From an uncultured Gemmatimonadales bacterium (GTDB lineage: Bacteria; Gemmatimonadota; Gemmatimonadetes; JACCXV01; JAHWKZ01): a DNA stretch of 64,000 bases. Position 1 is the first letter of the stretch. Each line of letters opens with the position of its first letter. The DNA is taken from assembly GCA_947259315.1 (NCBI GenBank), contig CAMYLR010000004.1, positions 146,192-210,191 on the forward strand. The letters are read 5' to 3'. The notes under the pieces were generated by a model. The model had not been told where the DNA came from. It made no database searches and worked only from the letters and a program-made list of their open reading frames with translations. Both the position numbers and the translations under genes were made by a program. This document shows positions 15,710 through 20,688 of the stretch, piece after piece.

Positions 15710-17647
15710 TCACTGCTTCCAGATATCGAGCGCCTGACCATCGATATCGGTTCGCATCTCAGCTTCGCCGCGGTAGGATCCCAACAACCCGCCCAGCCGG
15801 GGTATCTCCCACGTAATCCGGTCGGGTGGTTCCATACCATAGAGCTCCAGGATCGTGGGATAGATGTCGACCGTGCGTGGCATTCGACCGCTCTCGAACA
15901 ACCGCTCCGCTTTCTCAACGTCCAGCTTGGGGCCATGGATCAAGAGCGGGACGACGATGTGCTCTCGTCGGAGGCCACCGTGAAGCCCCGCTTGCATCTG
16001 GTCCCATGGTTCATACCCTGGCGCGGCATCAACGATGATGTCGCCCGAGTTGGGTCCGTCCAGCAACTGCACGATCTGAACAATCCCGTCCGGGTACTCG
16101 GAATCACGCGTCGCCGCGGCCCACGCGTCACCATCGTAATAGAGTTCTCCGCCTACCATCGCCCGCGTACCCTCGAACGACGCATAGCCGAGCGGGTCCA
16201 CTCCGAGCACCGCGCGGTACGAGTATTCCCGTTTTCCACGATCGTCACGCCGAGCGCGAATCACCGCCTCCCCCGAACGTGAGAAGACGTGGTACTCCAC
16301 CCGGCTCCGATCCTGCGCATAAACGTGTGAGACCTGGGGGTACGCCAGAAGCGCTCGGACAAGATCTGCCACCTTGCGGTCACCATCTGCCAGCCCCTTT
16401 ACCCCGTAGGCGCGAAGCTCTTCATATGACGGCCGCGTCGTCCAATCGTCGAGTGACGCGTCAGGCCGTCGGAAATACAGTTGCACGTTTCCATTCCCAG
16501 AGACGGCTCCGATCCCTGCCCACTGTCGATGAGAACCGCACCGCCAACGTTCGATCTCACGCCCCGAACTCCCCATCATGTTCAAGTGCGAATCGTGAAT
16601 CGGAATAGCAGTGTCTTGCGACAGTTGTCGAATAACGTTGAAGTGTGCATCCGGTGTGTCGCGCACCGTGCTCGTGCCGTGATCGGCGGTTACGATAATC
16701 GTGAGATCATCGAGCACACCGCGTTGTTGAAACACATAGCCGATTGCGCCCAGGATCTCGTCCGTCTGGCGTAGCGCTAAAGCGTACTCGTTCCCCACGC
16801 CGTATTGGTGCGAGGTGTCGTCGGGCAACCGGAGTGAGATCATAGAGAATTTCGGCGTGTGGCCTAGCTTTCGTGCCGACCATCGCTTTTCGCGAACCAC
16901 TCGTTCGAGGCTTGCCAGGCTAAAGAACTCTTCGACCAGTAGTCGCCCCCGGCCGCGACGACCCCACGGGAACAGTTCGCCTTCAAACTCGGCGATATCG
17001 GCGTACCGCCTGATGCTGAAGTCGGGGCTCAAGTAGTTCAAGAACGACAGCAAATTCTGAAGATCGTTATCGGCCACGCGCCCGAGGCCATACATGCCGA
17101 TCGCCCCCGGCAAGCTGAAGTAGTTCTCGTGAAGAGGCCGGAGCACAGACCCATCATCCCGCCACCCGCGCCGGGTCACGAACCCTGCCTGGTTGAACGT
17201 CTCTTCGCGTCCCAAGACCTCGAAGATCGTCGGGAACTCCGTCGTGAGATCCTGGCTGATCTCCTTCGTGTGTTGACCGATGTACGCCCGGAACGACTTC
17301 TCGCTCCGCAGATACTGACGGATCCCTGAAAGGTGCGACCTCTCAGGGAAAAGCCCCATCAGGAACGGTGCGTAGGCTGGGCCCGTAGTGCTCGGCCACA
17401 CGGACGTTGCCGCTGTGTACACGCCCCGCTTGACACCGCTCGAGTCTGGCGCCAACAGCCGTCCCAAGTACGGGAGCTCACCGGACTCAAGCATCGACCT
17501 GAAAACCGTCTCACTCGTTCCGTCGAGAATAACGAGTACGACCGGGTCTTTTACGGGCTGTCGTTCAGGATCTGACGACGTCGCGAAGATGAAGAGGAGA
17601 ATGGCGAGAAATGGCGCTGCGAGCCAAATGACATTTCTGCGCTTCAA
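15710..17647 (-). CDS. Alkaline-phosphatase-superfamily (type I phosphodiesterase-like) membrane-anchored enzyme
   Basis: 645 residues. The N-terminal hydrophobic segment (about 5-25) is a signal anchor, so the body is periplasmic. The first metal-binding block is VVLVILDGTSETVF, and the nucleophile Thr/Ser region is TAATSVWPSTTGPAY. A second metal site is TIIVTADHGTS, and a C-terminal His lies in LHGGLRREH. This set fits the phosphodiesterase/nucleotide-pyrophosphatase branch of the superfamily. The substrate cannot be told: nucleotides, phospholipid head groups or teichoic-like polymers are all possible. The start is TTG at 17647, overlapping the stop of the broken channel gene. Nearby genes do not form an obvious pathway. 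Confidence 0.82.
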   Translation of the reverse strand: MKRRNVIWLAAPFLAILLFIFATSSDPERQPVKDPVVLVILDGTSETVFRSMLESGELPYLGRLLAPDSSGVKRGVYTAATSVWPSTTGPAYAPFLMGLFPERSHLSGIRQYLRSEKSFRAYIGQHTKEISQDLTTEFPTIFEVLGREETFNQAGFVTRRGWRDDGSVLRPLHENYFSLPGAIGMYGLGRVADNDLQNLLSFLNYLSPDFSIRRYADIAEFEGELFPWGRRGRGRLLVEEFFSLASLERVVREKRWSARKLGHTPKFSMISLRLPDDTSHQYGVGNEYALALRQTDEILGAIGYVFQQRGVLDDLTIIVTADHGTSTVRDTPDAHFNVIRQLSQDTAIPIHDSHLNMMGSSGREIERWRCGSHRQWAGIGAVSGNGNVQLYFRRPDASLDDWTTRPSYEELRAYGVKGLADGDRKVADLVRALLAYPQVSHVYAQDRSRVEYHVFSRSGEAVIRARRDDRGKREYSYRAVLGVDPLGYASFEGTRAMVGGELYYDGDAWAAATRDSEYPDGIVQIVQLLDGPNSGDIIVDAAPGYEPWDQMQAGLHGGLRREHIVVPLLIHGPKLDVEKAERLFESGRMPRTVDIYPTILELYGMEPPDRITWEIPRLGGLLGSYRGEAEMRTDIDGQALDIWKQ

Positions 17648-18194
17648 TCTCTAGCGCCGGTTACCGTGCGACCAACCAAATACGCCACCAACCCGACAAG
17701 AAAAAGTTGTCCAGTGATCGCCTCGACTGTGGCCATCGTCTGTGCCAACGGTCGCACCGGTGTAACGTCACCGTATCCGAGTGTCGTCAGTGTCACGTAA
17801 CTGAAGTAGACGAACTGCCGTCCTAGGTCACTGCCGTGATCGAGCCCGGCGAACGAACCTGCAGCCATTCGCTCCACCATACCGTATGCAATCGCCCAGA
17901 CCATTCCGACAATGATGTAGACGCACAACGATGCGCTGACCGCAGCCGCAGTGATTCTGCGGTAGGTCAGAACGCGGAGCAAGAAGACCACCGCCACAAC
18001 ACAAACAGCGCTTTCTGGGTTCGAACGGTGAACAGTGAGCCAACGAAGATCGCGCCCCACAGTAGCGCGATGGGCCTCACACCCAAGACCGTCTGGCTAA
18101 TCACGGGTTGAGCAAGCAACATGAGCAGAAGAACAGCCAGGATGGCGTGGTAGATCTGGCTCGGAGCGTCGGCGTCTCGTGTAACAGTCATCAC
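17644..18194 (-). pseudogene. Two-helix potassium-channel-like protein, broken by a frameshift and probably an internal deletion
   Basis: Two reading frames together make one channel protein. Frame one (18194 to about 18000) starts with MMTVTRDADAPSQIY and encodes two hydrophobic helices, then ends in a frame-altered tail. Frame two (about 18020 to 17644) has VAVVFLLRVL, the helix CVYIIVGMVWAIAYG, the pore loop with selectivity filter TLGYGD (in TLTTLGYGDVTP), and a final helix. The switch lies near 17985-18010. Related proteins usually have another helix pair between these halves, so around 30-40 codons may also be missing; that would argue against a simple sequencing error. No slippery heptamer is evident. 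It is most likely a decayed K+ channel gene. Confidence 0.7.
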
Positions 18195-18230: not shown

Positions 18231-18259
18231 TTGACAACGACGTTAGCCATAAGTACTCT
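18231..18259 (+). promoter_or_regulatory. Sigma-70-type promoter for the RND efflux operon
   Basis: A perfect -35 box TTGACA at 18231-18236 is followed after exactly 17 bases by TACTCT at 18254-18259, which matches TATAAT at the first two and last positions. Transcription would begin near 18266, about 40 bases before the TolC-fusion start at 18307. It sits in the 112-base divergent gap between the broken channel gene and the efflux operon. Confidence 0.65.
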
Positions 18260-18306: not shown

Positions 18307-20688
18307 ATGAATTTCTTGACCCTTGCATTCACGGCTGCTGTCTTCTTTCACTCATCCGCCGCGCTTGCCCAGGTACCGGATCTCCGCGTCGGCGTCGTCA
18401 TCGATGGGCCGTGGGAACTGAACGACGATATCCGCCAGATGATCCATCGCGAGACTGCGACGCTTACAGCTAGTGAGTTTGACGTCCGATTTCCGGCCGA
18501 CAAGGATATCACCGCCGACTGGACGACCGAGGGCGTGCGCGCAGCACTAGACGTTCTGCTTGCTGATCCGCAGGTCGATCTGGTGATCGCATCCGGGGTT
18601 CTCGCTTCAATCGACGTCGTCCAGCGAGGACCGCTGCCCAAGCCAGTGATCGCCCCATTCACGATCTTCCCGGAGATACTAGGTCTGCCCCCAACCGGCG
18701 GGAGTGGCGTTGAGAATCTGAGCTATGTGACGCTTCCATCGACGTTCGAGAGAGATCTCCAAGCCTTCCGGGATATCGTCCCCATCACGCACCTGGCACT
18801 GCTGATGAACGCCGGGATCGCGACTGGAGTCCGCCACGGTCTGGCTACTATGGCGCAGCGCGCCGAGGCGTGGGGCATAGACGTGACCGTGGTTCCGGTT
18901 TCATCGTCGATTGACGACGCCATCGCCGCGATCCCGACTACCGTTGACGCCGTCTATTTGGCTCCCCTGCTGCACATCCCGATTAGCGAGCATGATCGAT
19001 TGCTGGACACGCTGATCGAGCGGCGCCTGCCGAGCTTCTCCGTGCTCGGACGTGAAGAGGTCGAGCGCGGAGCGTTGGTGGGGTTGCAGATGGACACGTG
19101 GTTTCCACGTATAACGCGTCGCATTGCGCTCAATATTCAGCGCATCCTGCTGAGCGAGCCCCCAGAACAGATCCCGGTCGAATTCCGCACTCAGGAACGG
19201 TTGGTAATAAACATGGCCACCGCTCGCGCGATCAATCGCTTTCCGCCCTACTGGGTATTGATCGAAGCCGAAGCCCTGAACGAAGCTCCTTCAGCCCCGA
19301 GTTTGGAACTCGATCTCCACTCCGCAGTCCATGAAGCGATTCGAGAGAACCTCGACCTGGCGGCCAATGAGCGGGCGGTCGCAGCCGGTGCGCAGGAGAT
19401 CCCGCTCGCCAGGTCCCGTCTGCTCCCTCAAGTGGACGCCTCCACGCTTTCGACGGCGATCGACGAAGACCGTGCGGAGGCCAGCCTCGGAGTCCAACCC
19501 GAACGCCGTTCAACCGGCACGCTGGCGCTGAACCAACTCCTATTCTCGGAATCGGCTTGGGCCAACCTGTCGATTCAGCGCCGCTTGCAGAATGCTCGTG
19601 AGCACGATCGGGAGGCACTCCGTTTCGACATCGCCCAAGCAACGGCCACGGCCTACCTGAATGTACTCCAGGCCAAGACCGCGGAGTCCGTTGAGCGCGA
19701 CAACCTCGCACTAACCCGCACAAACCTTGAGATGGCGCAATCAAGAAAGGAGATAGGGATCGCTAACCCATCAGAGGTCTATCGCTGGGAAAGCGAGGTG
19801 GCGCTCAGTCGCCGGCGAGTCATCGACGCGGTTGCGGCAACTCGCCAGGCGGAGATCGCTCTCGCGCGTCTTCTTAACCGTCCTCTGAACGAAACATTCG
19901 AGCTGGCCGATGTAGCGATCGAGGATCCTTCGCTCGTTACTGGGCAACGTGGCTTTTTTGGCTATGTCGAGGACCAGCTAGTCTTTGATGCTTTCTCCGA
20001 CTTTCTAGTCAAGGAGGGGTTGGCAGCCTCACCCGAGATCCATCAGCTAGACGAGCTGATCGCCGCAAGCGAGCGCTCGCTTCGCTCGGCAACGAGCGCG
20101 TTCTTCTCGCCCACCGTCTCGCTGCAGGCTCGAGTCGATCGTCAGTTCAACGAGAGTGGTGCCGGCACGGGAGGGCTCGGAGTTCAACTCCCGACCGAGC
20201 TTCCAACCGCCGACGACACCGACTGGAGCGTCGGCGTCAATCTCAGCATTCCGGTGTGGACGAGCGGTTCACGGCTAGCCGATCGCGTGCAGGCCAGCGA
20301 AGAGCTTTTTGACCTGCGCCTCCAGCGGGCTGCTGCCGCCGAGAAGGTCGAGCAACGCATCCGCACCGCCCTCGAGCGGATCAGTGCCTCGTTCCTGGGG
20401 ATCCAGCTCGCCGAAGATGCGGCTACCGCTGCTAACCAATCGCTCGAACTCGTATCTGATGGGTATTCCCGCGGTGTCGTTTCGATCCTCGACGTGCTCG
20501 ACGCGCAGAACGCGGCGCTGACTGCTGACCTCGCTGCGGCCGCCAGCGTCTACCAGTTCTTGATCGATCTAATGGAGGTCGAGAGAGCGACCAGCCAGCT
20601 CGATTTCTTCATGTCACCGGAAGCGTACGCAGCGTGGTTTCAGCGCCTCGATACTCACTTCGAGTCGGTTGGGGTTTCTCCTCGGTAA
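18307..20688 (+). CDS. Fusion of an ABC-type periplasmic substrate-binding domain to a TolC outer-membrane efflux protein
   Basis: 793 residues, about 300 more than a usual TolC-type protein. After a signal peptide (cleavage near ALAQ, residue 22), residues about 25-330 match the PF04392-type ABC substrate-binding fold. The evidence is an opening RVGVVIDGP strand, VDLVIASGVLAS, VDAVYLAPLLHIPISEHD, RRLPSFSVLGREEVERGALVG and VINMATARAINRFPPYWVL. From about 340 to the end the chain is a TolC/OEP protein, with two long helical repeats, SRLLPQVDAS and QLLFSESAWANL, and the second repeat ending in GVVSILDVLDAQNAALTA. It is the first gene of a three-gene RND operon, and the next gene overlaps its stop by one base. 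The fused binding domain could capture a ligand at the outer-membrane channel. The domain assignments are by motif recognition and the role is inference. Confidence 0.85.
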   Translation: MNFLTLAFTAAVFFHSSAALAQVPDLRVGVVIDGPWELNDDIRQMIHRETATLTASEFDVRFPADKDITADWTTEGVRAALDVLLADPQVDLVIASGVLASIDVVQRGPLPKPVIAPFTIFPEILGLPPTGGSGVENLSYVTLPSTFERDLQAFRDIVPITHLALLMNAGIATGVRHGLATMAQRAEAWGIDVTVVPVSSSIDDAIAAIPTTVDAVYLAPLLHIPISEHDRLLDTLIERRLPSFSVLGREEVERGALVGLQMDTWFPRITRRIALNIQRILLSEPPEQIPVEFRTQERLVINMATARAINRFPPYWVLIEAEALNEAPSAPSLELDLHSAVHEAIRENLDLAANERAVAAGAQEIPLARSRLLPQVDASTLSTAIDEDRAEASLGVQPERRSTGTLALNQLLFSESAWANLSIQRRLQNAREHDREALRFDIAQATATAYLNVLQAKTAESVERDNLALTRTNLEMAQSRKEIGIANPSEVYRWESEVALSRRRVIDAVAATRQAEIALARLLNRPLNETFELADVAIEDPSLVTGQRGFFGYVEDQLVFDAFSDFLVKEGLAASPEIHQLDELIAASERSLRSATSAFFSPTVSLQARVDRQFNESGAGTGGLGVQLPTELPTADDTDWSVGVNLSIPVWTSGSRLADRVQASEELFDLRLQRAAAAEKVEQRIRTALERISASFLGIQLAEDAATAANQSLELVSDGYSRGVVSILDVLDAQNAALTADLAAAASVYQFLIDLMEVERATSQLDFFMSPEAYAAWFQRLDTHFESVGVSPR

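Follow-up and report, generated by a model that had tools for sequence, protein, structure and literature searches.

Outer-membrane factors are usually treated as ducts that are opened from below by an adaptor. The 64,000-nucleotide stretch of Gemmatimonadales DNA analysed here (the window) holds a channel gene that also appears to encode a periplasmic binding domain, which raises two questions: is this a single genuine protein, and what would such a domain do on an efflux channel? The features of the locus are collected in Table 1.

Table 1 Fused channel gene, its domains and its neighbours in the window
Feature	Start	End	Strand	Basis or remark
Pore-loop ion channel gene (TLTTLGYGD), divergent, frameshifted	17644	18191	-	Recurrent neighbour in other genomes
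Promoter-like site TTGACA-17-TACTCT	18231	18259	+	-35 perfect (18231-18236); -10 at 18254-18259, 3/6 matches, weak
Fused outer-membrane factor gene, 793 aa	18307	20688	+	Exact ORF, ATG start; Pfam
Sec signal peptide MNFLTLAFTAAVFFHSSAALA	18307	18369	+	Sequence
Type I substrate-binding domain (SBP), residues 24-325, PF04392-like, TrpX/CD0873 fold	18376	19281	+	Profile, AlphaFold2 model, structural matches
Linker of 9 residues, residues 326-334	19282	19308	+	Family alignment; full-length model
Complete TolC/OEP channel domain, residues 335-769	19309	20613	+	Pfam, model, structure alignment
Equatorial segment, residues 524-575	19876	20031	+	Length comparison, fused vs unfused channels
Periplasmic adaptor gene (RND_mfp, lipoprotein-type start)	20688	21803	+	ATG overlaps channel stop by 1 nt (TAATG)
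RND permease gene (ACR_tran)	21800	24865	+	4-nt overlap with adaptor gene (GTGA)

A binding domain and a complete channel in one protein

An earlier note on this DNA had read the gene as joining a PF04392-like binding fold to a full TolC-type channel in one polypeptide. Both folds were modelled and matched to solved structures, and the gene is confirmed to encode a single SBP-TolC fusion protein. In public databases, genes of this kind are annotated as either 'TolC family protein' or 'ABC transporter substrate binding protein'. The signal peptide of the window protein has no lipobox, and only one possible lipobox was found among 76 relatives.

The channel part is unambiguous in Pfam, where the window protein matches OEP (PF02321) in two stretches at 136 bits (E 1.3e-39; cut-off 22 bits). 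In the full-length model, residues 24-325 align with SBPs and residues 335-769 with residues 1-411 of mature TolC (1ek9, Z 28.5). Because residue 335 corresponds to mature TolC residue 1, the fusion point lies just before that residue, across a linker of nine residues. Strands 375-384, 400-413, 603-617 and 638-647 are modelled together with long helices, as in the TolC protomer with its alpha-barrel and four beta strands. The full-length model is of a monomer (pTM 0.74) and leaves the relative orientation of SBP and channel unfixed. The span from A321 to L337 is 17 residues long in 67 of the 70 family proteins and is variable in sequence, so that the linker conservation sought as a sign of a real fusion holds for length and fails for sequence. 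The equatorial segment measures 52 residues in the fused family, at the median and at both quartiles, against a median of 37 in unfused channels.

The N-terminal assignment stands on structure, on the family profile and on the matches of relatives, whereas the window protein alone falls below the Pfam gathering cut-off for PF04392 (19.5 bits over residues 151-307 and at most 22.6 bits; cut-off 25.9). PF04392 is matched by 44 of the 70 family members, with a best E of 6e-11. A profile of the N-terminal part built from the 70 relatives retrieved 3lkv (E 9e-13), 3lft (E 1e-7) and 6hni (E 4e-4) from the PDB, and nothing else under E 0.5. The same three structures lead the matches to the AlphaFold2 model of the domain (pLDDT 94.5, pTM 0.90), with Z scores of 26.3, 25.3 and 24.8 over 287-290 aligned residues, against at best Z 17 for other full-length SBPs and Z 18 for half-length matches. 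As modelled, the domain is a full-length two-lobed type I SBP fold, closest to TrpX/CD0873.

Spread and history of the fusion

A scan of GTDB genomes returned 174 relatives, of which the best 80 full-length matches were kept, a selection that would under-sample domain losses. The kept loci come from more than 12 phyla, bearing out the expectation that the architecture would recur outside the window's own phylum; their taxa, whose names may be imprecise since many of the relatives are metagenome-assembled genomes, are Pseudomonadota, Thermodesulfobacteriota, Acidobacteriota, Nitrospirota, Nitrospinota, Myxococcota, Gemmatimonadota, Hydrogenedentota, Calditrichota, Latescibacterota, Bacteroidota, Ignavibacteriota, Zixiibacteriota, KSB1, Aminicenantes and GN15. 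Plasmids carry the same fusion too: tblastn matched it on one from Sulfuricurvum (33% identity over 96%) and on others from Cetobacterium. In the Cetobacterium members the SBP domain is missing some 30 residues near positions 210-240 of the window protein. Divergent fused channels of 20-29% identity also occur in Gemmatimonadota genomes and Cetobacterium plasmids (L006, L007, L054, L033, L034 and L049).

The reading frame runs unbroken from the SBP through the channel in nearly all 80 loci, some of which are cut by contig ends, and the frame breaks seen in two of them (L094 and L111) both lie away from the junction. Because virtually all full-length relatives, in independent genomes, plasmids and phyla, are read through with no intervening stop, an assembly join or a stop between the two parts is ruled out. 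An apparently unfused member of the fused clade (G204/L164, channel 45% identical) proved uninformative, its missing part being a run of N. Of 298 genomes sampled from the window's phylum, 18 contain the SBP part, in a few cases as a free SBP; the fusion is widespread yet patchy.

A channel-only tree that also took in 22 unfused channels from the window's class placed every one of the 79 fused channels on the same side of a single branch (SH-aLRT 99). Separate trees of the SBP and channel parts share 33 of 73 splits, against a mean of 0.2 and a maximum of 3 when names are shuffled, and nowhere do well-supported splits conflict. The simplest reading of these trees would be a single old fusion that has since been inherited as a unit, in a sample that was picked by similarity to the fused protein and is compatible with later domain losses. 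Relatives are on average 39% identical to the window over the SBP part and 43% over the channel part; this about equal conservation indicates that the SBP part is under selection. The sub-threshold Pfam score could still suggest an artefact, be it an assembly join or a false motif match, but we consider the chance of this negligible given the uninterrupted fusion across independent genomes, plasmids and phyla, the fold match at Z 24-26 and the congruent trees of the two domains.

Operon, pump partners and neighbouring genes

The fused gene is, as had been proposed, the first of an RND operon, ordered channel, adaptor, RND pump and tied together by overlapping stops and starts. No importer genes occur in the window operon, and no regulator gene adjoins it, consistent with the suggested lack of a local repressor. 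The sigma-70 promoter attributed to the operon is weak: the -35 box is perfect and the spacer is 17 nt, but the -10 box is poor and a promoter scan accepted no site.

Among the 80 loci, counted by hand and in part truncated at contig ends, the order channel-adaptor-RND was found 33 times, adaptor-RND-channel 14 times and HlyD-RbbA-ABC2 permease-channel 12 times. Sulfuricurvum has channel-HlyD-RbbA-permease, and the upstream sequence of two Hydrogenedentota loci (L123 and L112) weakly resembles ABC components. The same fused channel accompanies both RND pumps and HlyD/RbbA/ABC-2 exporters, so the domain is a property of the channel and not of a single pump class. This suits a function on the channel and speaks against one tied to the substrate of a particular pump.

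RND genes of this type with no fused channel beside them were looked into and set aside: G039 encodes the fused channel elsewhere in its genome, and the contigs of G042 and G145 stop too early, though G042 yielded no complete fused channel at any other site. In G039 the fused channel (L067) lies about 2.8 Mb from the likely RND pump, which has an adaptor and no channel gene. Of the gene families on either side of the operons, only PqiA in Nitrospirota hinted at a substrate. PqiA-type and MlaD-type (PqiB-like) lipid-transport genes stand upstream of the channel in Nitrospirota/Nitrospinota loci: the upstream set holds five PqiA matches, which we provisionally assign to L065, L083, L085 and L086, and MlaD is confirmed in L065.

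A further, unexpected neighbour is the pore-loop ion channel. Its gene in the window is split, with N-terminal helices read from the ATG at 18191 and the pore part in another frame; either a pseudogene or an error in the sequence could account for this. It adjoins a gene of the type I phosphodiesterase / nucleotide pyrophosphatase family (15710-17647, minus strand). At seven other loci (L058, L068, L078, L092, L117, L132 and L134) an intact ion channel of about 235-250 aa with a TLTTLGYGD-type filter lies at most 80 nt from the pump genes on the same strand, and L077 has a 69-residue fragment in the same position. Each of the seven genomes has one full-length relative of the ion channel, equated with the neighbour from frame length and strand. 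Ion_trans_2 genes adjoin the fused channel in G040, G182, G251 and G237 too. In G030, G039, G051 and the genomes of L113 and L120, the one full-length relative did not appear next to the fused channel, and three of the genomes searched had none. The link is thus recurrent, not universal; that the ion channel compensates charge for the pump is only a guess.

Conservation within the binding domain

Six residues of the SBP part are invariant in the family alignment (D33, G97, G255, R271, N302 and A321). D33, with the near-invariant G34, follows strand 1 and G97 follows strand 3, positions held by cleft loops in type I SBPs. The remaining cleft-side loops are mostly no more conserved than average, and cleft residues vary from member to member; an apparent division of these residues by pump type was discarded, as it mostly reflects close kinship among ABC-type members. 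The most conserved stretch is the channel-proximal end, residues 299-323, which is conserved in free PF04392 proteins as well and may represent a common core only. At two positions the window protein differs from its relatives, with F121 where 62 of 70 have D and S283 where 69 of 70 have G.

In TrpX of S. suis, the amino acid is bound by T108, A127, T129, D152 and N233 (PMC9382623). These correspond to V98, F118, I120, L143 and H223 in the window protein, by an alignment at about 18% identity in which single positions may be off by one. All five columns have an entropy above the domain mean, and the TrpX residue dominates in none. Amino-acid binding of the TrpX kind is therefore unsupported, and, judged from these alignments, a TrpX-like ligand is unlikely because the residues that would hold it are not conserved.

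Possible functions of the fused domain

In TolC the N-terminal helix starts at the equatorial ring and extends to the membrane; in E. coli the TolC equator is also where the lipoprotein YbjP docks (PMC13082787). By analogy, our tentative first choice is a ligand-responsive SBP collar at the TolC equator. Each protomer would carry a TrpX-class SBP nine residues from its equivalent of TolC residue 1, and in a TolC-like trimer the three domains would encircle the channel from outside, as a collar level with the equatorial ring. If the SBP closed on a small ligand in the periplasm, one that is probably not an amino acid bound in the TrpX manner, this closure would act through the short linker and the equatorial segment and shift the ease of adaptor docking and channel opening. 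The predicted equatorial position, the fixed linker and the two pump classes make action on the channel itself (opening, docking or assembly) likelier than substrate delivery, and a linker of fixed length and variable sequence is more in keeping with mechanical coupling than with loose tethering. The cleft-side conservation of D33, G34 and G97 argues for a ligand, while the variable rest of the cleft and the reduced Cetobacterium domain argue against one. The variable TrpX-pocket positions and the unfixed domain orientation also count against a ligand-responsive collar, as do the deletion data for its analogue YbjP, which give no support for an allosteric role (PMC13082787).

The same collar could be purely structural, which we regard as almost as likely. 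The SBP would bind no ligand and serve as an equatorial spacer or docking surface for assembly, outer-membrane placement or contact with peptidoglycan or the adaptor, as a covalently attached equivalent of YbjP or of the lipid anchor found on OprM-type channels. Loss of the TrpX pocket residues and a largely variable cleft are in keeping with this, as are the constant lengths of linker and equatorial segment, signal peptides without a lipobox, and a Cetobacterium domain that is reduced but retained, its missing piece fitting a structural role at least there. The strong conservation of residues 299-323 points the same way, but its persistence in free PF04392 proteins weakens the point. D33, G34 and G97, invariant or nearly so on the cleft side, speak against a mere spacer, and a complete two-lobed SBP kept across many phyla would be a costly one.

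Unlikely, in our view, is that the domain captures the pump's own substrate in the periplasm and enriches it locally for uptake by the adaptor and RND pump. SBPs do bind small molecules, RND pumps draw substrate from the periplasm, and cleft residues that differ between members are what differing substrates would produce. Yet the same domain accompanies ABC-2/RbbA exporters, thought to be loaded from the cytoplasm or inner membrane; it would sit at the channel, outside a closed wall and far from the pump's entrance, on a short, fixed linker.

The ligand-responsive collar can be carried one step further, to an efflux duct whose opening is set by a periplasmic small molecule on the fused SBPs, in a module that works with RND and ABC-2 exporters and is co-encoded with an ion channel in several lineages. 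This fuller picture we consider doubtful.

Comparison with known systems

We found no description of an SBP-TolC architecture in the open-access literature. Both parts are known families, and their combination is old and widespread. The fused protein resembles TolC, OprM and CusC (PF02321) in having a complete channel with two OEP repeats and all helices and strands (Z 27-29 over 383-404 residues); it differs from them by about 300 additional N-terminal residues and from unfused channels by its longer equatorial segment. With TrpX, CD0873 and VC_1101 (PF04392) it shares the full-length two-lobed type I fold (Z 24-26, 13-18% identity), but the fused SBP is neither a free protein nor an importer lipoprotein, and it has not kept the residues by which those proteins hold the amino acid. 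Helicobacter pylori HP1489, a possible relative compared by description only, is presented without mention of such a domain in the portion of its source consulted. Bucl8 of Burkholderia is likewise a channel protein with an added domain, which in the part of the source consulted is a collagen-like region and not a periplasmic SBP (PMC7682875).

The YbjP-TolC complex is alike in placing an extra periplasmic domain at the TolC equator (PMC13082787), a placement that is predicted for the fused protein. YbjP, however, is a separate lipoprotein with an unrelated DUF3828 fold, whereas here the SBP is part of the channel polypeptide. A conserved SBP anchored on the duct, across many phyla and in combination with two classes of pump, would add to tripartite pumps, on their outer-membrane side, either a ligand input or a new assembly element.
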